A stretch of 20,341 nucleotides of DNA from a virus: the IMG/VR virus record IMGVR_UViG_3300023700_000776, positions 1-20,341 of that record. One strand, 5' to 3'. The translations under genes and the position numbers were made by a program. Shown here piece after piece: positions 1-17,887 of the stretch. Position 1 is the stretch's first letter, and each line of letters begins with the position of its first letter. The notes beneath the pieces were generated by a model. It was not told the DNA's origin. It saw only the letters and a list, made by a program, of their open reading frames with translations, and ran no database searches.

Positions 1-3000
1 GTAACGTTGTAGATACGACCAGCTTTAGCTAGTCTGTGCATCTCACTGTTAGCTCGCTTACGAGCACTCTTATAGTCAGTCTTGTCGGTTACTCCGTTCC
101 AACGCTTCAAATCAAAGATTAAGTGTTTGTAATTCATAAACTGTTTAACAGTGTTAATGAATTGTGCATCACTAATATAGTATTGATCTGGGCGATCGGC
201 TTTAGGCTTCCAACCAGACTTGTCTGATTCTAAGAATTCTTTAAATGCTTTCTCACGAGGGGTTAATTCAGTACCAAAGTATTCATACTCTCTATCTAAT
301 GTTTGTAAGAAACCTTTGTAGGTACCTTTATCACCAATAGAAACTTCACCACCTAACGCTCTTACTTCATTTACAGCTTCTCCGAACTGTTTCTCAAAGT
401 CTTTAACAAAAGCATCTACCATATCCCAGTCTAAGACTTGAGGTAATGCGATGTTGTTAATAGCATGAAGCATTAATGGGTATGATTGTGAATTCAAAAT
501 CAAGTTATCGAATACAGGAGTAAACGGTACCATGTCTGCTGGCTGCTTACCTTCGTTGAAGTGTCGTGCAGCAATAGACAACATTACAGATTCACGATAC
601 TGACCAAAGGCTGGACCAACTTGATTGATCGCTGCAGTACCTGGACCTGGAATTACCTCATTACCAAACTCATCTGTTGTGCCTTTACGTTTGGCAGGTG
701 CCATAGGGTCAAACACTGTAATACTAGTGTTGATCTTACGAGCCTTGCTCTTGTTCTTATTCTTGATCTCAACAGATTTACCTGATTCAATAGACCCGAA
801 TCTACCAAAGCTTAGCTCTTCACCAAACTTACCAATAGGGTGTGGTACTCTATTGAACATTTGTAAAGTAGCTACTGTCTTTTTAGGCGTAGTAAACTGC
901 CATTCTTGTAGAGCTGTTCTCACAGTGTTCTTCAAGATGTCGTTTAGGTCATGCACTAATTTAGTACTATCGCCATTGTACTCAGCTGACTCCAACATTT
1001 CAGTTGCAAACTCAGGGTATTCTTTTAAGAAAGCTCTTGCTTCGTCTACGTGGAACGCTGAAGATTTACCATAGCCAGTTGTAAGTAGAGTTTTCTTAGC
1101 GAACTCTTTGTTAAACTGACCTGCACCTTTGACACCAATACCACCAAATTGATCTAGCTTTTCTTTCCAGAGCGCCGATGTATCGACCTTATCAGGTCCA
1201 AATGTAGTACTGATACTCTGTTCTTTAGCCACATCCGTAAAGTAGCGACGTGGATCACCTTCAGGCATAGTATCTTGGAACTCTGCGTCAGATAAGTATT
1301 CCCAGATCAAACCAACACGGCTTAGAATGTCAAAGTTACCAATGTCAGAAGCAAGGAACATTAAGCCAGCTGAGTTAGCATCAATCGCAATTGTTACCTT
1401 AGGGTTAAATCCAGTACCATTACGCTTAGCGTTGACATAATCAGCAGCATCTACATAAGCTTGTAATACATAGCCCCATGTTTCACGGTCACCAATGCCT
1501 GTAGACAAGTCAGCTACTTTTGCTAATGCTTTTTGCTGTACAGGTTCTAATAAACCAAACTCAATTTTGTCAAATCCTTTAAGCAAATCACCTTTGTTTG
1601 TAGGTACAATACTCTTTAGGGCATCACCAATGAATGCTGCTTCGTGGATAAAGTCAGGTGTTACTAAAGATAGCATCTCAGGGAATACCATCTGTTCAGT
1701 CTTCATACCTACTTTAGAACCAACATCTAAGACACGACCTAATGTAGCTAAGAAGCTTAATTCCTTTTCTTTAGCAGATAAGTTAGCATTCTTGTTCTTT
1801 GATAACTCACCAATACGTTCCCAGAACTTATTAGCGGTTTCACGATTAACACCCTTAGTATGATACTCAGTAGTAGGGTCTAACTGGAATGATGGTGAAA
1901 CAAAAGATTCAACAGCACGAGTGTACTTATTACGTTGAGCATTAAATCGAGGGTCTAAATACACACGGTGTGTACTATAGTCTTCCCATGCAGGTGTAAA
2001 GTAAGCTTGCCCTAAAGCAACCTCATTTAGGTGATCAGTTCTTTCTTTAAGTAAATCAGCAACTTTATCTTTAATAGACTTAGCTTCAGGTGTCAACTCT
2101 TTAACAGGCACCTTAGAGTTTGGCATAAAGTAGTCATCACCAAACATATTGTAAGCATCATTAGCATCTTTTTGACTAATCTTAAATAGATGCAATACAT
2201 TCAAAGGTGTGCTTCGATTAGGGTCTGATAACTGATTTAGTAACTGATTAACATATAAGGAACCAATAACAGCTTTACCAGCACCTACGTGTTTAGCAAT
2301 AGAACCAACAATGCGTTTAGTCTCATCCATTTCTGGTGTGTTTTTGAACTTATGTTTCTTCTTATCACCAGTACGAATGTTCCTTGATGCACCTACTAAA
2401 TTACCCTTAGATGATACAGGCACACGCTGCTTTTGGCCAGCCATAGCTGCGTTCATTTCTTTACCCATAGCACGAGAAGTAACGTAACGCTCATGACCAA
2501 AGCCAGGTGCCATACGGACTAACTCAATACCTTCAGGTGATACATCCTCAACTAAATGACCAGCATCAATCTCAGCTTGCAAGCCAATCTCACCTGCTTC
2601 TTCAGTACTAATATCTTGGCGAGGCATCGTAGAAGGGTCAAGCGGTTGATTGTTAGCATCAAGAGCAGAACCTTGAGCTAACTTCTTCATCAAACGACCA
2701 TATGTCTTAGCTACTGAAGCACGAGGCATAGCACCATCAACAGCAGTCATTTCAACTGGGCCTTCGCCGTCATCACGGAGAAGATCATTGATAGAGTCGT
2801 ATCCAAAGTCTACATCAGACGCTTCTTCGCTAGCAGCTACAGAACCATTACCTTGACTAGCTGCACCTGAAATCATAGGACTCATCAAGATACCTGCCAT
2901 GTTAACTACGTTAGCAGTAGATGCAGTTGATGTGTTTAGTCCTGACTTCAATCGAGTCATTGCTGAAAGCTGAACAGCAGTAGGCGAATTACTGTCACGA

Positions 3001-3539
3001 AGAGTAACAGTAGTATCCGCTAATGTTTCACCAATAGCTTTAGAAGCTCGCTGGATAATACCAGCTTGAGTAGGTTTAGCAGAATCAGGGAACGCATCAC
3101 GAAGTTCTTTAATTGAAGTCCAGTCCTTGTTAAGTGGCTTCATTAAGTTAGCTTGTCGGCTACGTTCTTCTTCATACATTTGTTGGATTGCTTCTGGATC
3201 CGTAATCTCATTACCACGGATATCCATCAAACGAGAAGGCATACCTTCCATGACATCACTGAAAGGTGAAGGTTCATAGGTAGGTGCCTTAACACCCGAA
3301 GCAGCAAAAGAAGGATAATCTTCCTCTTCTCCTTGGTAACCTACAGCAGGTACACTGCCTGTTGATTGCATATTCTGAGGGATTTCTCCCATAGCATTTG
3401 CTTGTCGAGCTGCAATAGACTCGTCTGTTACATCTAGCGATGGTACAACAGGTACTTGCTGTTTAAGTTGATCTTCAAGGAATCGGTTGCTTTGACCTAG
3501 TGAAGGTACATTAGCTCCGGATGGAATGTTAATAGCCAT
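1..3539 (-). CDS. Single-subunit (T7/N4-type) DNA-directed RNA polymerase, probably virion-packaged; 3' end off window
   Basis: The frame is open from the ATG at 3539 to the left edge, giving 1179 codons with no stop seen; the C-terminus is missing. A Shine-Dalgarno GGAG lies 9 nt upstream of the ATG, inside the end of the preceding gene. The landmarks of single-subunit RNA polymerases appear in order. R525 lies in STHRVYLDPRFN, like the T7 R425 region. Motif A is AIDANSAGLMFLA, with catalytic D720. Motif B is KKTLLTTGYG, with K815 and Y823 spaced like T7 K631 and Y639. Motif C is PVFDNLI, with D1011. The A-to-B distance (95) is close to T7 (94). About 170 Pro/Gln/Ser-rich residues precede the conserved part. 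It is the last gene of the virion block, as for phage N4 gp50, so packaging and injection are inferred. Oddities are F1010 in place of the usual His of motif C and Lys at the T7 R627 position. Confidence 0.78.
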   Translation of the reverse strand, partial: MAINIPSGANVPSLGQSNRFLEDQLKQQVPVVPSLDVTDESIAARQANAMGEIPQNMQSTGSVPAVGYQGEEEDYPSFAASGVKAPTYEPSPFSDVMEGMPSRLMDIRGNEITDPEAIQQMYEEERSRQANLMKPLNKDWTSIKELRDAFPDSAKPTQAGIIQRASKAIGETLADTTVTLRDSNSPTAVQLSAMTRLKSGLNTSTASTANVVNMAGILMSPMISGAASQGNGSVAASEEASDVDFGYDSINDLLRDDGEGPVEMTAVDGAMPRASVAKTYGRLMKKLAQGSALDANNQPLDPSTMPRQDISTEEAGEIGLQAEIDAGHLVEDVSPEGIELVRMAPGFGHERYVTSRAMGKEMNAAMAGQKQRVPVSSKGNLVGASRNIRTGDKKKHKFKNTPEMDETKRIVGSIAKHVGAGKAVIGSLYVNQLLNQLSDPNRSTPLNVLHLFKISQKDANDAYNMFGDDYFMPNSKVPVKELTPEAKSIKDKVADLLKERTDHLNEVALGQAYFTPAWEDYSTHRVYLDPRFNAQRNKYTRAVESFVSPSFQLDPTTEYHTKGVNRETANKFWERIGELSKNKNANLSAKEKELSFLATLGRVLDVGSKVGMKTEQMVFPEMLSLVTPDFIHEAAFIGDALKSIVPTNKGDLLKGFDKIEFGLLEPVQQKALAKVADLSTGIGDRETWGYVLQAYVDAADYVNAKRNGTGFNPKVTIAIDANSAGLMFLASDIGNFDILSRVGLIWEYLSDAEFQDTMPEGDPRRYFTDVAKEQSISTTFGPDKVDTSALWKEKLDQFGGIGVKGAGQFNKEFAKKTLLTTGYGKSSAFHVDEARAFLKEYPEFATEMLESAEYNGDSTKLVHDLNDILKNTVRTALQEWQFTTPKKTVATLQMFNRVPHPIGKFGEELSFGRFGSIESGKSVEIKNKNKSKARKINTSITVFDPMAPAKRKGTTDEFGNEVIPGPGTAAINQVGPAFGQYRESVMLSIAARHFNEGKQPADMVPFTPVFDNLILNSQSYPLMLHAINNIALPQVLDWDMVDAFVKDFEKQFGEAVNEVRALGGEVSIGDKGTYKGFLQTLDREYEYFGTELTPREKAFKEFLESDKSGWKPKADRPDQYYISDAQFINTVKQFMNYKHLIFDLKRWNGVTDKTDYKSARKRANSEMHRLAKAGRIYNV

Positions 3540-3543
3540 AGAA

Positions 3544-4917
3544 TTATTCTCCTAATTCTTTTTGTAAATATTTAGCCAAGGCGGGACTTGTTCCAACAAT
3601 AGGAAGCAACCTGGCACCCTTCTCAATTCGCTTACCCTCAGGTGCTGATAAAGCAGAATTGATTTTGTTGATAAATGATAATTGAGGTGATTGATCAGAG
3701 ATCTGGTCATATACTTGACCAAGAATACTGTTAGCCTTTTTATCATTACCAACGGTAGGAGATATAGTATCCCAAATACGTTGACCAGTACCTAGTAAGC
3801 CTACTTGGTTAATCAAACGTTGAAATTCTTTATCTTCTTTTAGCCATTTAGGTGGATGCTCATTGTACTTGATCATGTCTTTTACATACAGAGCAAGCAT
3901 AGATAAAGCAAACATCATGGCAATTGTTGCGGCAGCATTACGCTGGTCATCAGAACCTTTCTTACCTAGATCACCTAGTAATCTTGGAAGAGTAGTTGCT
4001 GTGAATGTTGAGGTGTAACCTTGAAATTGAGTAAACAACTTCAAGTACGGGTCACTATAAAACTTAGGTCTGTTAAGTTGTGAAGGAACAACAACAGCTT
4101 CGTTAACAAAGTTGTATGCACCAGCTTGTAAGTTGGCTAACACTCTCTGTTGATTCTGTGGAGTATCCTTCTCAATGCTAGTCATAAAGTCTAAGTCAAC
4201 ACCAATACGAATCAAATGCTCTTTGGCATCTTGAACTTGTTGAGGTGTGAATGTACCATTACCCTGAGCAACATTAACCCAATGATTAATGGCATCAGCA
4301 GCAATAGCTAGCTTAGCGTGACGAGTAACAGCGGTGATAGAAGTCAAACCAGTAAGCTTGAAGAAACCTTCATTCCACTTCTGGAAATAACCTGTTAAAA
4401 TGTCATTACGATTTCCAATACCACCTTCTCTTAGGAAGCCAGCTTCAGATAATTCCCTACGATGCTTAGATGCCGTAGGGTTTTTAATTCCAAATGATTC
4501 ACCTAGCTCTTTGAATAAAGCGCCAAACTCTTTACCAAAAGTATTGAGAAGAATTCGAGTAGCTTTAACGGACTGAGGTGCATTTAAGTTACGGTATACC
4601 TGAGCAAACTCTACAGTAGAGCTAATAGCAGCTAGTGGTAGCGAAGTAATAGTAGATAAGAAATTAACCAAATTCAATGCACCACGAGCGTACTCATTAG
4701 TAATAGGGTGGAACTTACCTGCTCTCATATCTAGGAAATCTTTAATTTCCTTAGCCATGAATGAAGCTTCTGCTTGAGTAATTGCACCTTTATTAACTGC
4801 ATCTTGAAGTAATGTGGCTAACTTAATACCATCTTTACCAATTAATTCTTTGTTAACTGCAATAGCAGCACCACGAGCAGCTAATGAATAAGCATTGTCT
4901 AGCAAATCGGTAGACAT
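3544..4917 (-). CDS. Internal virion / ejection protein (C-terminal-module type)
   Basis: The product is 457 residues and mostly helical, Ala- and Leu-rich. Residues about 282-351 contain NRPKFYSDPYLKLFTQFQGY, then TFTATTLPRLLGDLGKKG, then a hydrophobic stretch (TIAMMFALSMLALYVKDM). From memory, this block recurs near the C-terminus of very large internal or ejection proteins of podoviruses, where it would be a core or membrane segment. It lies between a nuclease-domain virion protein and the RNA polymerase, which fits a role in the injected core. No clear Shine-Dalgarno precedes the ATG, and the reading frame is open for 11 codons upstream of it with protein-like sequence, ending at a stop inside the last codons of the upstream gene. 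The product may therefore be translated by coupling, or be a split-off part of a once larger protein. No enzymatic motif is recognised. Confidence 0.6.
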   Translation of the reverse strand: MSTDLLDNAYSLAARGAAIAVNKELIGKDGIKLATLLQDAVNKGAITQAEASFMAKEIKDFLDMRAGKFHPITNEYARGALNLVNFLSTITSLPLAAISSTVEFAQVYRNLNAPQSVKATRILLNTFGKEFGALFKELGESFGIKNPTASKHRRELSEAGFLREGGIGNRNDILTGYFQKWNEGFFKLTGLTSITAVTRHAKLAIAADAINHWVNVAQGNGTFTPQQVQDAKEHLIRIGVDLDFMTSIEKDTPQNQQRVLANLQAGAYNFVNEAVVVPSQLNRPKFYSDPYLKLFTQFQGYTSTFTATTLPRLLGDLGKKGSDDQRNAAATIAMMFALSMLALYVKDMIKYNEHPPKWLKEDKEFQRLINQVGLLGTGQRIWDTISPTVGNDKKANSILGQVYDQISDQSPQLSFINKINSALSAPEGKRIEKGARLLPIVGTSPALAKYLQKELGE

Positions 4918-4937
4918 ATAAGGTGCAAATTTAGCTT

Positions 4938-7337
4938 TTAGCTCTGACCATTAAGCTTCTTTTCAATCTCTGCTTTGCTTTTAATTTTATTAGCATCAGG
5001 GTTTAGCCAATCATCGATTGTATCTTCAATACTGTTTACATCATTATTGTTTAATACCGCTTGAGCCATTTGAGTAGCTTCAGCTTGGTCAACACCAAAT
5101 GAACTTTGAATATCAGAAATAAATTGATTGAAGTTTTTAGAAACTAGTGTTTTGTCTAATGGGTGGTTCTCTAAGAATCTTTCTACGGAGATATCACTGC
5201 CTGTTGCTCTGTTATAATCGTTAACTAGGTTATCAATTTTATTAGCGTATTTTAAAATACCTTCTTTGTGTAGTACATCAGCACCAAGGTCAGCATCAAT
5301 ATCAAGACCATCAATAGAACCAGTTAAACGTTTATTACGAATCAATCGGCTAACTACATCAACTACATTTTGTTTAGATAGCAGAGCAGATGCTTCTTTA
5401 GTGGACATGCCATTAAAAGCTGACTGTAGTTCTTCTTTATTACCAAAGTTCTTAAAGATGTTTGATTCTAGTAAGTGTTGAGTTTCATCAATAGATAAAC
5501 CATTAACAGCACGAGTAGAACCAAGTAAGGTGCTTAATGCAGCAAGAGACTCATCAGCATAATCTTTACCCTTCATAATCACATTAGACCACTTACCAAA
5601 CAAAGATGTTAAACCTTTATCCTTGAAGAATGAACCAGTCTTAGCGGCTACACCTTCAATGTTTCGTTTAGTAGTTTCCATCTCAGCTAACTTATCTAAG
5701 TCAGGGATTTCATTTGATTGACTAACATTCTTTTGAGCTTTAACTAAAAGTTCAGAAGCAGTAGGAACAGTAGTTGTATTGTTATCTGCCTTGTATCGTT
5801 CTCTGTATTGTAAGTCAGAACCTTCTTTAGTAGAAGCTGCTGAGTTAGTTAGTGTAGCTAAACCTTTACCAGCACCTGAAAGACCACCACCAAGGATAGC
5901 ACCACCAACCGCAGCATTAGCTGTACGGCTTTGTAGCTTAGCCCATTCCTCAGGTGTCTTTGGTGCTAGTGTAACTTCTTCACCTAAATAAGAAGCAATC
6001 TCTTGTAATGATTCTGTACCACCTTCGGATACAGCGCCTTTACCAATAGCACCCATAACCGCACCAGCACCTAAGTTCTGTTTGATAGCAACAGCTCTCA
6101 TAGCATCTGATACGTCTTTAACCGCTTCTTGAGTAGATTTAAGAACCATTTTCTCAGCGGCTTCTTGGGTAATACCTCTACCCATAAGCTCTTTAACAAC
6201 CATTGACTGTGTAGCTTTGTCAGTAATTTTTAGGGCAGCACCAGCGCTAATACCTTCTAAACCTACTTTATCAAGAACAGCTTGTGTTACACCTGACAAA
6301 ATAGCTGCAGTAGCGTTCTTTTCTTTTTGGGCATTCCATACATTACCTGTATAGATAGCTGCAGGAACTGACATTGAAGCACCATAGGTTAATGGTGAAG
6401 CCATAGTTGCAATAACAGACGCTACCATTTGAGGGGCTGATGATGCAGCCATACCAACTGAATAGTCAACTACTTTACCAAATGAATCTAGCTTCCAATG
6501 ACCTTTATCATCAAAGGCTTCAGCGTTCTTTAGGAAAGGGAGGTCTCTTAAGATAGACTCTTGTTGTTTTACGTTTGCCTTACCCATGTCAGCTAAGAAA
6601 TCAATACCTGTTTTAGTGCCGACTAAGTCTAAAGCACCAAACCAACCTTGTTTCATTTGAGCAGTACCAATGTCTAAACCTGTAGACCAGTTACTCTTGG
6701 CTCTTCCATAGCGATCTTCTTCAGGTCTAATAACTGCAGGACCAGCAAAGTAGTCACTTGACGTACCTTCACCAACAGCTTGACCGAATTCTTTAGCAGT
6801 GTTAGTGTATCGTTTTGCTTGTACACCACCTTGATTACGCTCAATATTAAGGTCAGTTAATAGCTTATCCGCTACTGTCTGAGTACCTTCTGCTTGACGT
6901 TTAGCTCTATCTAGACGACCCAAATAAGCTGAATCCGTTTGCTGTTGTGTAACAGAAATAGATGGATCAACGTAACCTAGCTCAAGTAAACGGTTTGACA
7001 ATGGCTTACCATTAGCATCTGTTAACTCACCTAAGTTACGTTTGTAAATATCTTTGGATGTACCAAGAGAAGGGGTGGCATAACCTTCCTGATTGATAAC
7101 ATCTCTAACTAAGCCTGTCTGTGTGTCGGCTCCCAACTGAGGGGCGATAAAACCCTCTTCTTTAAGCTTGCCCGATTCACGAGCGTTAATACCGGGAACT
7201 CTCAATGTAGTCCCGTTATCAAGAAGGATTGTATCAGCATCCTTCAAGCTACCACCTTCAATTTTAAAGTTAGAGGCTTTAGGGATATCTTTTGAATTGA
7301 CTCCTAACTCCATTAGCGTTTGTTCTAATTTATCCAT
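4938..7337 (-). CDS. Large internal virion / ejection protein with N-terminal thermonuclease-like (SNase) domain
   Basis: The product is 799 residues, and its ATG is preceded by a strong AGAGGTG. Residues about 25-125 read as a staphylococcal-nuclease fold. KDADT (D33, D35) corresponds to D19/D21 of the nuclease. TLRVPGINARES supplies R46 and E54 at the R35 and E43 positions. IYKRNLGEL supplies R100 at the R87 position, followed by a typical LLELGYV end. The usual D40 is replaced by N51. The middle is Ala/Gly/Met-rich, with hydrophobic stretches at about 293-333, 421-436 and 472-492, the last in NAAVGGAILGGGLSGAG. This resembles membrane-active parts of giant phage ejection proteins. The C-terminal 300 residues are polar and helical, with no recognised domain. 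The neighbours are a muramidase-domain protein upstream and a core-like protein then RNA polymerase downstream. Whether the nuclease domain is active is unknown; it could be a binding domain. Confidence 0.65.
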   Translation of the reverse strand: MDKLEQTLMELGVNSKDIPKASNFKIEGGSLKDADTILLDNGTTLRVPGINARESGKLKEEGFIAPQLGADTQTGLVRDVINQEGYATPSLGTSKDIYKRNLGELTDANGKPLSNRLLELGYVDPSISVTQQQTDSAYLGRLDRAKRQAEGTQTVADKLLTDLNIERNQGGVQAKRYTNTAKEFGQAVGEGTSSDYFAGPAVIRPEEDRYGRAKSNWSTGLDIGTAQMKQGWFGALDLVGTKTGIDFLADMGKANVKQQESILRDLPFLKNAEAFDDKGHWKLDSFGKVVDYSVGMAASSAPQMVASVIATMASPLTYGASMSVPAAIYTGNVWNAQKEKNATAAILSGVTQAVLDKVGLEGISAGAALKITDKATQSMVVKELMGRGITQEAAEKMVLKSTQEAVKDVSDAMRAVAIKQNLGAGAVMGAIGKGAVSEGGTESLQEIASYLGEEVTLAPKTPEEWAKLQSRTANAAVGGAILGGGLSGAGKGLATLTNSAASTKEGSDLQYRERYKADNNTTTVPTASELLVKAQKNVSQSNEIPDLDKLAEMETTKRNIEGVAAKTGSFFKDKGLTSLFGKWSNVIMKGKDYADESLAALSTLLGSTRAVNGLSIDETQHLLESNIFKNFGNKEELQSAFNGMSTKEASALLSKQNVVDVVSRLIRNKRLTGSIDGLDIDADLGADVLHKEGILKYANKIDNLVNDYNRATGSDISVERFLENHPLDKTLVSKNFNQFISDIQSSFGVDQAEATQMAQAVLNNNDVNSIEDTIDDWLNPDANKIKSKAEIEKKLNGQS

Positions 7338-7352
7338 ATCACCTCTTTTAAA

Positions 7353-10103
7353 TTATTTCTCAAGGCTCTTTCTCAGAGCTTCTGTAGCGAATTGATAGAA
7401 AGCAGTTTCGTTGCTTGTACCTTTGAATTGCTCTCTTAACTTAGCACTCTTAGGGTTAGCCCACACTTGATGTAGTCTTTGAATTTCACTTGTTGCCTGA
7501 GCTTCATTAGGTTTACCGTCATTACTTACTGCAGAGAATCTACGAGCAAGGTTATTCAAGTCAACAATCTTTTCAGCTGGCATTGGTTTATCTTTTTCTA
7601 ACATCAAAGCGTTAGGATCAATACCCATGCGTTGAGTAATTACGTTACGAGCTAAGTACGGCTCAATGCTGTTTATTTTAGTACCAGCATTTTTAGCTGC
7701 AAGCATATCTTTAGTAGCATTACCCATTAACAATCTTGCTTCTTGCATCTGACGACCATCTTCTAAATTGAAACCAATATTAGAGAAATAACTACCAGCT
7801 TGATCAGTAATTTGTTTAGGTCCAGGAATACCTTGACGGTTAGGGTTGGCTTTACCTTTGACGTTATCAGCACCTAATTCAGCAGTAAGAATTTCATCTG
7901 CTACTTCCGAAGCAAACTTAGTATTCTTAATCTGACGTTCAGTCTTACCTGTTACACCATGAGTAGATTCGCTCCAAGGTGTTAATGATAATCCCTGCTT
8001 TTGTAATGCGTCTAGAGGTACTTCTCGACCATCAATAGTTGCAACTTCATAACGATCGCCTTTACGTTTACCTGTCTTTTCTTCAACTGTATGTACAACA
8101 ATAGGCTTGTTATACAATGCAGGATCAGTAGACATCATAGTACGAGACTCACCAACACGAACAGTAGTTCTTGTAGGCTCACCTAATTGACGAGCATCGT
8201 TTGTCTTGAAGTATTTATCAATAGCTTCTTGTGGGTAACCTGCTTCAATGAGTTTAGCTTCAATAGTTCTACGGTGCTGTTCGTTAAGCATGTTAACTTG
8301 ACGAGCATCTGCACGATCTTGTAGTGCCATACTGTTCTTAAACTGCTCTTCACGATCTTGTCTGTGTAGAGAATTTTCAAAAGTAGTACGACCAGCAAAT
8401 GATAATGAACGGGCACCATCATAACCACGAGCACGAGAACCTAAGTACATTGCACCCATACGAGCAACATCTTGGTTATTCAAACCTAAAGCATCTTTCA
8501 AACCTTTGTAAGAGAAAATGTCTTTAAATGTTTCTAAGAATGTACGGTCATCACCTTTAGAAGCATCAAAAGCTTTATTAACAGCATCTTGTTGGCCTTT
8601 CAAGGCATTAGAAACAACTTGAGGCGTTGGAACAGTTGCAGTTGGTACAATTTCTGTAGTTGGTTTTACTTCAACTTTAGGAGGTAACTCTGGACCTTGC
8701 GCACGATATTTACCACCACTTTCTACTCGGGTAATAATGTCAGCCATTAAACCAAGCTTGTCAGCAGGTACTTTGTCTGTTGGCTTAATACCTAATTCTG
8801 CAGCAATAGTGTTTGCGTATGCTTCAGGATTGTTTCTGTCAGACGCTGGTGCATACTTCTTCATAGTATCTATTAGAGTCATGCCACGTTTTTGGGTATC
8901 TAAAGCAATTTGCGCTTCGAGAGCTGCGCGACCTTCTTCATGTGATTTAAATTTAGCAAATCCACCTTCGCCTAATTCAGCACCTTCTTGTTTGGCAAAC
9001 TTAAGATTACCCGGATTAAAGTTTCTTTCAGCAATAGTTAAAGGTGAAGAACTAACAGCAGGTACAGCAGGGTTTACAACTTCTGCTTTAGGCACTGCAA
9101 CAGGAGTAACTGCAGTAGGGGCTGAAACTTCAGCAACAGGTACTGGCTTAGGTTGAGAAGCTACAGGTTGATTTTCATTAACTGTTTGCCTTACTTTATC
9201 ATAGTAAGGAGTAGCAGTACCAGAACCAATACGAGGTAAAGTTACTGAGTTAACATCATTATCATAAATACCTAATGCGCGACCAATACGAGGAACACCA
9301 ACAGCATTAGCTAACCATTCAGTACCAGCAGATATTGCGTTAACAGGGCCACCAACTAAAACGTCAGCGGCGGCGGCGGGGATTGCCATCGAATTAGCAC
9401 CAGCAACTGCCATTGCTCTGCGATCATTTTGTGCTTGTAATTCGTTGTCTTCTACGCTTGTAACACCATCCTTATAGTACTGTGGTTCAACTTGAGTGGT
9501 ACCATCTTCCATAGAAGCAGCACTATCAGTGTGGTAGTAGTTATTTAAATTAGGGACTGATTCAGTACCTTCGGCATATCCTTTTGGATTACGCTTAGGC
9601 GCTACCTTAGGTAGGATAGGGATTAAGTTTTGTTGTTGAACAATACCAGTAGTCCCTTGAGCATGATACTGTGCTTGACGACCTTGTTGAACCATTTGTT
9701 TAATTAAAGGCTTATTCTTTGGGTCTTGAGCAGCAGCTTTAGGAATAACAGCTTCACCTGGAGTGAGCATTGCAGGTACGGTATCAGTACCTTTAGGTAA
9801 CATGTGCTGACCTCTGTGGAATACCTCAGCTCCGGCTAAAGGGTTGTTACTTGGTAACCCCATCTTTTCTCGGTTCATACGCTTACCAGAAAGCGGACCG
9901 CCTAATTCTTTTACTTTGAGATTATGTAGCTCTTCTTTGTGAGCAACACCTTGACCAGCTTTAACAGCTGCTTCTTGCATTTTAATCTCGTGTAATTCTT
10001 GTTTACGACTTTCCTCGTTCTCCATTTTCTTGGTTTCACGAGCTTCTTTAGCGTGGTGTTTAGCCCACTCACGTTCTTGTTTTGCAGACAAAGGTGCAAT
10101 CAT
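7353..10103 (-). CDS. Composite virion protein with predicted peptidoglycan hydrolase (muramidase/transglycosylase-like) domain
   Basis: The product is 916 residues, and its ATG follows a strong AAGGAG. Residues 1-70 are highly charged and probably coiled coil. Residues 105-122 carry GTDTVPAMLTPGEAVIPK, a motif common in tape-measure and other virion proteins. Two looser relatives, GTESVP (about 179) and GVTSVED (about 213), follow. Residues 310-355 are a Pro/Val/Ala linker. Residues about 357-463 begin ERNFNPGNLKF and include GFAKFKSHEEGRAALEAQI and KYAPASDRNNPEAYAN. This is the pattern of phage lysozyme-like virion domains of the NPGNL type. The remaining 450 residues are helical and unrecognised. 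The position in an internal-protein block suggests an injected wall-piercing protein, functionally like T7 gp16. The catalytic residue cannot be assigned by eye. Confidence 0.65.
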   Translation of the reverse strand: MIAPLSAKQEREWAKHHAKEARETKKMENEESRKQELHEIKMQEAAVKAGQGVAHKEELHNLKVKELGGPLSGKRMNREKMGLPSNNPLAGAEVFHRGQHMLPKGTDTVPAMLTPGEAVIPKAAAQDPKNKPLIKQMVQQGRQAQYHAQGTTGIVQQQNLIPILPKVAPKRNPKGYAEGTESVPNLNNYYHTDSAASMEDGTTQVEPQYYKDGVTSVEDNELQAQNDRRAMAVAGANSMAIPAAAADVLVGGPVNAISAGTEWLANAVGVPRIGRALGIYDNDVNSVTLPRIGSGTATPYYDKVRQTVNENQPVASQPKPVPVAEVSAPTAVTPVAVPKAEVVNPAVPAVSSSPLTIAERNFNPGNLKFAKQEGAELGEGGFAKFKSHEEGRAALEAQIALDTQKRGMTLIDTMKKYAPASDRNNPEAYANTIAAELGIKPTDKVPADKLGLMADIITRVESGGKYRAQGPELPPKVEVKPTTEIVPTATVPTPQVVSNALKGQQDAVNKAFDASKGDDRTFLETFKDIFSYKGLKDALGLNNQDVARMGAMYLGSRARGYDGARSLSFAGRTTFENSLHRQDREEQFKNSMALQDRADARQVNMLNEQHRRTIEAKLIEAGYPQEAIDKYFKTNDARQLGEPTRTTVRVGESRTMMSTDPALYNKPIVVHTVEEKTGKRKGDRYEVATIDGREVPLDALQKQGLSLTPWSESTHGVTGKTERQIKNTKFASEVADEILTAELGADNVKGKANPNRQGIPGPKQITDQAGSYFSNIGFNLEDGRQMQEARLLMGNATKDMLAAKNAGTKINSIEPYLARNVITQRMGIDPNALMLEKDKPMPAEKIVDLNNLARRFSAVSNDGKPNEAQATSEIQRLHQVWANPKSAKLREQFKGTSNETAFYQFATEALRKSLEK

Positions 10104-16076: not shown

Positions 16077-16760
16077 TTAAATCTTTTCTTTAATAAACAT
16101 CCTTACTAAATCACCTACGATATCTGATCTAACGATATCATCTACTGTGAACCTCACAATAGGAATTTCAATACCGTTATTCTCACACATTTTACAGAAC
16201 TTAAGGATATTAGTTCCTCTGTCAATATCAGACTGAGAAGCATCACCCATAAGAACCATCTTACTATTCTCACCCAAGCGAGTAGTAATAGCTTTGAGTT
16301 CTTCAAGGGTAATATTTTGTACTTCATCAACTAGGATAAGGGAGTTCTCAAATGAACGCCCTCTAATAGTTTCAATAGGCTGATACTGAATGCTGTCTTT
16401 AGCGAGTAAATATTCGTACTTAGTTTTAGTTAATTGTTTTTGTAAAACACTAATCATGGGAAGTAGCCAAGGAGCTAACTTCTCTTTGATATCACCGGGG
16501 AAGAAACCTAATGACCGTCCGGTGGGGACATTACTACGAGTAAGAATGATGTGGTCGTAGTTGCCTGATTGAAATAATTGTGCTATTTTACTTGCCGCAC
16601 AGTAGGTCTTGCCTACACCAGCAGCACCTAAAGTTACTGTGATTGGGAAGTGTTCAATAGCTTCTAACAACAAACCCTGATCACGGGTCTTTGGCTGGAT
16701 GTGGAAAGACTTAGGAGCCTTAGCAAGTTCATCCATTTGTTTTCTGTGGTTTCTTTTCAA
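16077..16760 (-). CDS. PhoH-like ATPase
   Basis: The product is 227 residues of the PhoH P-loop NTPase family, common in phages; its cellular role is uncertain (RNA- or phosphate-starvation-related in bacteria). Walker A is GAAGVGKT at 45-52. The PhoH signature TRSNVPTGRSLGFFPGDIKE spans 74-93. Walker B is LILVDEVQN at 141-149 with D145 and E146, and MVLMGDASQSD at 168-178 is the following strand. The start is TTG at 16760, chosen because AGGAAA lies 6 nt upstream; the first in-frame ATG (codon 9, 16736) has no such site. It sits between the endolysin and the tail block, so it is expressed with late genes. Length and motifs are complete. Confidence 0.9.
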   Translation of the reverse strand: MKRNHRKQMDELAKAPKSFHIQPKTRDQGLLLEAIEHFPITVTLGAAGVGKTYCAASKIAQLFQSGNYDHIILTRSNVPTGRSLGFFPGDIKEKLAPWLLPMISVLQKQLTKTKYEYLLAKDSIQYQPIETIRGRSFENSLILVDEVQNITLEELKAITTRLGENSKMVLMGDASQSDIDRGTNILKFCKMCENNGIEIPIVRFTVDDIVRSDIVGDLVRMFIKEKI

Positions 16761-16783: not shown

Positions 16784-17236
16784 TTACGCTGCGTGGTATT
16801 CTGCTTCTGTGAGGATGCCAGGTTTGTACTTGTTTTCTGGACGGAAGATAGTGAGTTCTTGTTGACGCATTTCAGGGGCAAAGCTAATGTGCATCCAACG
16901 ACCGAACTCGTGGATCATCTGGTCAAACTTGATACCAGCTTTCTTTACTTCTTGGCATAGTTGAATAGGAGTCAACTTAGAGCTAGATACGTCAATAGCC
17001 CAACCATCCATATGTGAGGATACTTTAGAACCACCTACAGCAACGTTAACATCAGGTAAACGTAACCATGAGTTAATGTTTAATGGACCAGTAACAGCAC
17101 GGAGTTGTTCTAGTTTTTGAGCAGCTACCTTCATGTTCTCTAGTTGTAGAGTAGACGGTTGGTTAGGGATACCCATACGAATAGCCGTATCAGAGTGAGT
17201 AGCTTCTTCTAGTGTGAAGTGTTCAGATAAGTTCAT
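16784..17236 (-). CDS. Endolysin, M15-family peptidase (zinc D-Ala-D-Ala-type)
   Basis: The product is 150 residues. The start HFTLEEATHSDTAIRMGIPN, the body VAVGGSKVSSHMDGWAIDV and QMIHEFGRWMHISF give the M15_3 layout. H75 and D82 lie in the SxHxxGxAxD motif, E110 is the likely catalytic base and H116 the third zinc ligand. It should cleave peptide cross-links of the wall at lysis. There is no signal peptide, so it depends on a holin for access. The ATG overlaps the Rz stop by 4 bp (ATGA), placing it in the lysis operon directly after the spanins. Length fits the family. Confidence 0.92.
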   Translation of the reverse strand: MNLSEHFTLEEATHSDTAIRMGIPNQPSTLQLENMKVAAQKLEQLRAVTGPLNINSWLRLPDVNVAVGGSKVSSHMDGWAIDVSSSKLTPIQLCQEVKKAGIKFDQMIHEFGRWMHISFAPEMRQQELTIFRPENKYKPGILTEAEYHAA

Positions 17237-17640
17237 TTAACGTTCCTTACTTGGTTATAACGATCAATACAGAGATTCAAATCTCTTATTGCTTCGTCTC
17301 CGTCTGTTGTGATGGTGATAAGAGCTTGACTAGTCTGTCTGTCAAGTTCGGCTCTCGCTTCTGAATTTCCAGAGGCGGTATTTGGTAGGGTACTGGGGAT
17401 TGACAACCTGACAGTGCCAGCATCAATATCAGCCCTAAGCTTATTGATTTTAATTTGTGCATCTTGTTTTTCCTTAGTATACTTTGCGTTAGTCTGAGCA
17501 GCTTCTTCTGCCATTACTGCGTTGAGTCTACCAATCTCGGCTTGTTGCTCAACGTATGCTTGATGGTGGCCCCAACCAAATGAGGCACCCATCGCAATAA
17601 TAATACCAAGAATAACCGAAGGGTTAAACAGGCTTAGCAT
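17233..17640 (-). CDS. i-spanin (Rz-like)
   Basis: The product is 135 residues with an N-terminal signal-anchor (PSVILGIIIAMGASFGWG). A charged helical periplasmic part follows (QQAEIGRLNAVMAEEA to KLRADIDAG) and a C-terminus ending DLNLCIDRYNQVRNVK. This is the Rz inner-membrane spanin plan and would join the outer-membrane spanin to fuse the membranes at lysis. The ATG at 17640 was chosen because AGAGGA lies just upstream. The longer frame from GTG at 17715 adds only an artificial hydrophobic run lying inside the holin gene. A second spanin is nested inside this gene in the +1 frame. It overlaps the holin by 17 bp. Confidence 0.85.
   Translation of the reverse strand: MLSLFNPSVILGIIIAMGASFGWGHHQAYVEQQAEIGRLNAVMAEEAAQTNAKYTKEKQDAQIKINKLRADIDAGTVRLSIPSTLPNTASGNSEARAELDRQTSQALITITTDGDEAIRDLNLCIDRYNQVRNVK
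17286..17462 (-). CDS. o-spanin lipoprotein (Rz1-like), nested within Rz
   Basis: The product is 58 residues in the +1 frame relative to Rz and lies wholly inside it. The ATG at 17462 follows AAGGA at 8 nt. MHKLKSISLG is the charged start of a lipoprotein signal; LILMLALSGC ends in a lipobox with the lipid-attachment Cys at residue 20. A Pro-rich start of the mature part (QSPVPYQIPP) and a short polar tail (to TETKQ) complete the Rz1 plan. It should be lipid-anchored to the outer membrane and bind the Rz C-terminus. This nested architecture is known for lambda and other Gram-negative phages. Confidence 0.88.
   Translation of the reverse strand: MHKLKSISLGLILMLALSGCQSPVPYQIPPLEIQKREPNLTDRLVKLLSPSQQTETKQ
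17471..17475 (-). promoter_or_regulatory. Internal ribosome binding site for nested Rz1
   Basis: AAGGA on the minus strand, inside Rz, lies 8 nt before the ATG of the nested lipoprotein at 17462. It supports independent translation of Rz1. Confidence 0.65.
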
Positions 17641-17887
17641 CTTCCTCTTTCTTCTCGCCCTTATTAAAAGCAGAGATACCAAGGATAGCAGCAAAGGCAA
17701 TATGCACAAAGCCACCGTTAGTTAGTGTCAATGGAACCCACTGACGGAAGGCATCGTTAGCTGCCTGTACTTCCCAGAACTGTACAATAGTGTACATGAT
17801 AGGGAATATAATAAAGTCAGCAATGTTAATTGCCATGTAAGTAAGACCCATTAAATAGGTCCACTTCTTTTTCATCATTTCATCCAT
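17624..17887 (-). CDS. Holin candidate (GTA-type holin-like)
   Basis: The product is 87 residues, and its ATG follows AGGAG with a 6 nt gap. Two hydrophobic spans are evident: about 10-36 (YLMGLTYMAINIADFIIFPI) and about 55-74 (NGGFVHIAFAAILGISAF), with WVPLTL just before the second. The QWVPLTL...HIAFAAILG pattern recalls small phage and gene-transfer-agent holins with a charged tail (here KGEKKEEDAKPV). Its stop lies 17 nt into the Rz gene. In a cassette with Rz, Rz1 and an endolysin, a pore-forming lysis role is likely. The precise family is from memory. Confidence 0.65.
   Translation of the reverse strand: MDEMMKKKWTYLMGLTYMAINIADFIIFPIMYTIVQFWEVQAANDAFRQWVPLTLTNGGFVHIAFAAILGISAFNKGEKKEEDAKPV
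17643..17648 (-). promoter_or_regulatory. Ribosome binding site deciding the Rz start
   Basis: AGAGGA on the minus strand is just upstream of the ATG at 17640, inside the holin coding sequence. It supports the 135-residue form of the i-spanin over a GTG start at 17715. Confidence 0.65.

Follow-up and report, generated by a model that had tools for sequence, protein, structure and literature searches.

Results

Organization of the putative ejection cluster

The window, that is, the whole 20,341-nucleotide stretch of viral DNA analysed here (IMG/VR record IMGVR_UViG_3300023700_000776, positions 1 to 20,341), carries a putative ejection cluster of three large genes, one of them split, with the following features.

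3..3539, minus strand: 1179-aa protein encoded by the third of the large genes in this putative cluster, downstream and running off the window; no family match
3544..4917, minus strand: 457-aa ORF encoding the C-terminal body of the putative ejection protein that begins in the 799-aa ORF; match to virion structural protein phrog_6958 and similarity to particle proteins of the Vibrio KIT05 group
4938..7337, minus strand: 799-aa ORF with SNase domain, linker, Gly/Ala-rich stretch (residues ~280-500) and middle part of the putative ejection protein; early end by frameshift
4944..4949 (near 4946), minus strand: one base missing relative to intact relatives, splitting a gene of ~1264 aa
6960..7256, minus strand: SNase-like (thermonuclease, OB-fold) domain, residues ~28-126, assigned from AlphaFold2 with Foldseek, hhalign, invariant catalytic residues and PF00565 matches in relatives
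7038..7040, minus strand: R100, equivalent to SNase R87; invariant (27/27)
7176..7178, minus strand: E54, equivalent to SNase E43; invariant (27/27)
7185..7187, minus strand: N51, at the position of SNase D40; N in 13, S in 9 and D in 5 family members
7200..7202, minus strand: R46, equivalent to SNase R35; invariant (27/27)
7233..7235, minus strand: D35, equivalent to the SNase metal ligand D21; invariant (27/27)
7353..10103, minus strand: adjoining upstream gene, its product a putative ejection protein in which residues ~343-467 form a peptidoglycan-hydrolase-like domain; GH108 or SLT in relatives

The ATG of the 799-aa ORF is preceded by AGAGGT, which resembles a Shine-Dalgarno sequence. The gene is present in the window as 799 + 457 aa and is unsplit in all relatives covering the site, the intact copies being single ORFs of ~1260-1455 aa; the one-base deletion is either a sequencing error or a genuine mutation. 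The first-pass annotation had described a large protein with a thermonuclease domain fused to its front; the fusion stands, but the ORF on which that description was based is a frameshifted piece of the real gene.

The murein hydrolase domain of the adjoining upstream gene is swapped among relatives, being endolysin-like in the window, GH108 in L001 (gene at 2980-5982) and SLT in L010 (2295-5534) and L011 (2-2152). The nucleotide match between the window and the otherwise near-identical L001 is interrupted at this domain (8567-9475). Elsewhere in the window, a PhoH-like ATPase gene lies within the late/structural region (16077-16760, minus strand), and a lysis cassette (16784-17887, minus strand) encodes an M15 peptidase-type endolysin, a spanin resembling Rz and a possible holin, which is a small membrane protein. 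A PADLOC search returned nothing relevant.

Relatives of the putative ejection gene

The domain, a 10-row alignment and the 457-aa ORF served as queries for scans of IMG/VR, the broadest of which yielded 37 loci. The patterns used in that scan, YNF[VI]NEA and PKFYSDP, sit in the C-terminal body, so the relatives were not selected for SNase residues. They range from the near-identical virus L001, whose aligned blocks are 99.5% and 89% identical to the window, to marine viruses at ~25% identity. The N-terminus was reached in 34 of the 37 loci (L042, L043 and L054 start inside the gene), and the SNase motif was present in every one of those read. Since tblastn searches of phages starting from the 799-aa ORF and from its N-terminal part were uninformative, distant relatives were taken as queries, and two cultured carriers were found, Roseobacter phage CRP-7 (gp34, MK613349) and Aeromonas phage phiA008 (gp66, OL774570), both proteins being annotated as hypothetical. 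No match was obtained with phiA008 as query against the viral contigs, and a scan of genome contigs for prophages gave none. The phiA008 protein is 2050 aa long (L058 844-6993) and combines an N-terminal SNase domain, a central HELGH zincin-like motif and an ejection-type C-terminus.

The N-terminal domain is a divergent SNase homologue

Searched alone against Pfam SNase, NCBIfam and PDB sequences, the window protein gave no SNase match, and we therefore examined the SNase assignment through its relatives. PDB sequence searches with the domain (phmmer and profile) likewise did not find SNase; the profile search matched HPr at E ~0.3, which was regarded as chance.

An AlphaFold2 model of the domain, built on relatives, reached a pLDDT of 77.5 and a pTM of 0.67. 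Foldseek comparison of this model with the PDB placed SNase entries (and SND1) at all 50 ranks among the matches listed, and the best of them were SNase entries with TM scores of 0.51-0.55. In the viral library the best match was a 1368-aa protein, probably CRP-7 gp34 itself, which has the same length; a 1342-aa uncultured phage protein auto-named SNase-like was also among the matches. When the phage domains were aligned by hhalign with nine bacterial and phage thermonucleases, the E-value was 7.4e-7 for the 10-row profile and 7.3e-9 for the 26-row profile (score 59), with the catalytic positions in register. PF00565 matched four of ten relatives (best E 1.9e-4). Against the Pfam cut-off of 21 bits, L011 scored 24.3 and phiA008 gp66 29.9 (E 7.9e-7), and the window copy gave no match.

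That the resemblance is a chance motif match, as might be suggested by the failure of the window protein on its own to match SNase in Pfam or among PDB sequences, is extremely improbable in view of the predicted fold, the invariant catalytic residues described below, the passing of the Pfam cut-off by L011 and the profile score; 30 column-shuffled control profiles reached at most 15.6, which rules out a chance resemblance at the profile level. We conclude from the profiles and the predicted model that residues ~28-126 are a divergent SNase domain. The first-pass annotation had proposed such a domain at 6960-7260 (residues 26-126) and recommended structure prediction and comparison with PF00565 as checks; both agree with the proposal, and its placement of D35, R46, N51, E54 and R100 is correct as read.

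Conservation of the catalytic residues

Besides M1, only D33, D35, T36, R46, E54, R100 and G110 are invariant across 27 aligned domains, and the first six of these correspond to SNase D19, D21, T22, R35, E43 and R87, respectively. Identity in the domain drops to ~20% among the 27 homologues, with the catalytic set constant throughout. The seven invariants among 100 positions include all four SNase catalytic positions; given the alignment, the hypergeometric p is 9e-6. A conserved loss of catalytic residues, which would have spoken against the assignment, was sought in close and distant homologues alike; they keep the Arg/Glu/Asp set except at the D40 position. The phage domains thus share with SNase/thermonuclease (PF00565, COG1525) the OB fold, the D19-x-D21-T22, R35, E43 and R87 equivalents, a D-x-Y-x-R motif in many family members and an identical spacing of R35, the D40 position and E43. 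They differ in that D40 is N or S in most members, that the window copy lies below Pfam detection, and that the domain is part of a phage virion-type protein of >1200 aa whereas SNase is a small enzyme. As judged from dN/dS values of 0.06-0.27 in ten pairs, similar to those of the body, the SNase domain is under purifying selection.

D40, which in SNase is a metal ligand binding Ca2+, is replaced by N51 in the window, as already pointed out in the first-pass annotation. This is no peculiarity of the window copy, because the site varies across the family (N or S in 22 of 27 domains, D in five). Loss of R35, R87 or D21 impairs SNase activity far more than substitution of D40 does, so N or S at this position would be tolerable; kinetics of SNase D40 mutants were not found in the literature searched. 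With N51 in place of D40 the window copy is not to be called a canonical active thermonuclease, and its homology to SNase is unaffected. The complete catalytic set including D40 is found in CRP-7 gp34, phiA008 gp66, L011, L038 and L048, and five further CRP-7-like contigs also retain it.

The body resembles particle proteins of short-tailed phages

The C-terminal ORF matched the virion structural protein family phrog_6958 (E 4e-19) and, by tblastn, Vibrio KIT05-group phages (E down to 3e-8), and family relatives matched structural proteins of Pseudomonas phages tf, KPP25, PaP3 and UFV-P2. AlphaFold2 gave a low-confidence model of the body, with which Foldseek matched no solved ejection protein. 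The near-identical contig G001 encodes SU10-type portal (1.2e-127), capsid (4.4e-73) and adaptor proteins, as well as a class II ribonucleotide reductase and a T7-like RNA polymerase. The portals of G001 and CRP-7 share 52% identity, and CRP-7 is a short-tailed phage (podovirus) by TEM (PMC6918029). These genes and the kinship to CRP-7 place the body gene in a late virion cluster of the short-tailed phage type.

By sequence, the body is a homologue of the phage particle protein that short-tailed phages of the LUZ24/PaP3 type encode (LUZ24 gp50, tf gp51, UFV-P2 ORF58), sharing the hydrophobic and C-terminal parts and the position of a late gene near the end of the virion cluster. The LUZ24 homologue bears the name phage particle protein (PMC3890496), and mass spectrometry of LUZ24 virions identified nine particle proteins (PMC3517423). 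In SU10, gp20-24 are ejection proteins, one of them a transglycosylase (PMC9509320), and the exchangeable hydrolase domains on the upstream gene product here would fit an ejection protein like SU10 gp20. By analogy to the LUZ24 mass spectrometry and to SU10 gp20-24, virions would contain the protein and lose it when the genome is released. The reading of the part behind the nuclease domain as an ejection protein, put forward in the first-pass annotation, is thus supported by homology and gene context. Among the smaller neighbour genes, one 138-aa protein clearly matched phage tf and the other two pairs were non-significant; with just this one clear match, we do not claim that synteny with LUZ24-like phages is complete.

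Unlike the intact protein of ~1264 aa, tf gp51 (1021 aa) has neither the SNase domain nor the linker, and SNase is also absent from the KIT05 and KPP25 versions of the body protein inspected. A hidden SNase upstream of the annotated start of KPP25 ORF088 was considered, and none was present when the frame was read. The annotated start of ORF088 is the GTG at 550; the frame runs on without a stop well beyond it on the upstream side (L060 551-1327), and the true start probably lies further upstream. CRP-7 gp34 and phiA008 gp66 resemble the window protein in carrying an N-terminal SNase on a homologous ejection-type body and differ from it in keeping D40 and, for phiA008 gp66, in its extra regions. 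In a tree of the C-terminal body, phiA008 groups with KPP25 on long branches, which tentatively implies at least two gains or losses of SNase; the domain of phiA008 gp66 may be an independent acquisition.

Discussion

A candidate nuclease acting at genome entry

The SNase homology, the conserved catalytic set, the purifying selection and the in-frame fusion to a virion-type body, as read from sequences and predicted models, lead us to propose, with a probability of roughly 0.6, that the gene encodes a LUZ24-type podovirus ejection protein whose N-terminal SNase-like domain is a packaged and ejected nuclease acting at genome entry. The protein would be packaged in the phage head and exit with the genome or just ahead of it; its body would help to form a trans-envelope DNA conduit, and the N-terminal domain would meet divalent metal outside the capsid and then cleave nucleic acid inside the infected cell at about the time of entry. 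We consider it more likely that the target is host nucleic acid, or other foreign or defence nucleic acid close to the point of entry, than the DNA of the phage itself. Several points count against this proposal. D40 is replaced in the window and in most homologues, the window copy taken by itself matches SNase in neither Pfam, NCBIfam nor PDB sequences, the low-confidence fold of the body resembles no solved ejection protein, and a nonspecific nuclease would threaten the phage's own DNA unless kept apart or regulated; perhaps that DNA is spared through a metal-free capsid or because the nuclease remains at the envelope.

The loss of D40 in 22 of 27 homologues bears on whether the domain is still an effective enzyme at all, or instead an OB-fold nucleic-acid-binding module that holds or guides packaged or incoming DNA. 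SNase-fold domains without catalytic residues do exist, as in SND1, entries of which are among the Foldseek matches. However, the equivalents of R35, E43, R87 and D21 are invariant, a whole set that would not be expected to be kept for pure binding, and D40 itself is retained in five divergent members, both isolates included; we consider a mere binding role unlikely. If the domain does cleave, its substrate might be the phage's own DNA, with the nuclease trimming or nicking the first-threaded genome end or clearing DNA stuck in the conduit. SNases cut without site specificity, which argues against such a role, even though the protein carrying the domain probably acts on the genome as it is ejected. 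The LUZ24-like phage tf is known to have nicked genomes (PMC3517423), but the ejection homologue of tf itself is without SNase, and we regard self-cleavage as improbable. Still less credence is given to a late-made structural or assembly protein that is never ejected and whose nuclease works in the producing cell, for example in host DNA breakdown or packaging clean-up: the gene does lie within the late cluster, yet its body has homologues among the virion particle proteins of LUZ24-like phages and the swapping murein hydrolase domains of its neighbour are typical of ejected proteins. An ejected nuclease acting at entry therefore remains our preferred reading.

Ejection proteins are usually regarded as conduit builders and murein hydrolases. 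Like T7 gp16 and SU10 gp20, the window protein would have an enzyme domain built into an ejection protein, N-terminally as in T7 gp16; unlike these transglycosylases, the domain is of nuclease type by sequence, and a murein hydrolase-like domain is found on the neighbouring gene product. The arrangement is also reminiscent of polyvalent proteins, large proteins that enter together with phage or plasmid DNA and carry effectors, predicted DNases and RNases among them (Iyer et al. 2017, PMC5512222), delivery being presumed for the window protein. Polyvalent proteins have several effector domains, whereas a single enzyme domain is recognisable in the window protein, and that through its relatives; the DNases discussed among them are ParB-like, and SNase or staphylococcal nuclease is not mentioned in the main text of that paper (PMC5512222). 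The word nuclease does not occur in a 2022 review of ejection proteins (PMC8954989). The first-pass annotation knew of no description of such a fusion, and we likewise found no combination of a thermonuclease with an internal virion protein in the literature searched, which covered openly available main texts. Part of the family is already public as hypothetical or auto-annotated SNase-like proteins, the ejection context apparently having gone unnoticed.

Many aquatic short-tailed phages thus have an SNase-tipped probable ejection protein and may deliver a DNA- or RNA-cutting enzyme at entry. A conserved nuclease at this tip would mean that the phage attacks host or defence nucleic acid from entry onward. 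In a bolder and frankly tentative version, a widespread lineage of aquatic podoviruses would inject an active nuclease within its DNA-entry machine and cut host or defence nucleic acid before phage gene expression, and N or S in place of D40 may retune metal use, keeping the enzyme inactive within the capsid yet working in the host. Because CRP-7 and phiA008 are cultured carriers, enzyme assays and virion proteomics are within reach.

As a separate observation, Roseobacter phage CRP-810 encodes a 2016-aa protein, gp35 (L061 1559-7606), which adjoins a homologue of the ejection body and gives a weak match (E 7e-5, under Pfam's cut-off) to ART-PolyVal (ADP-ribosyltransferase).
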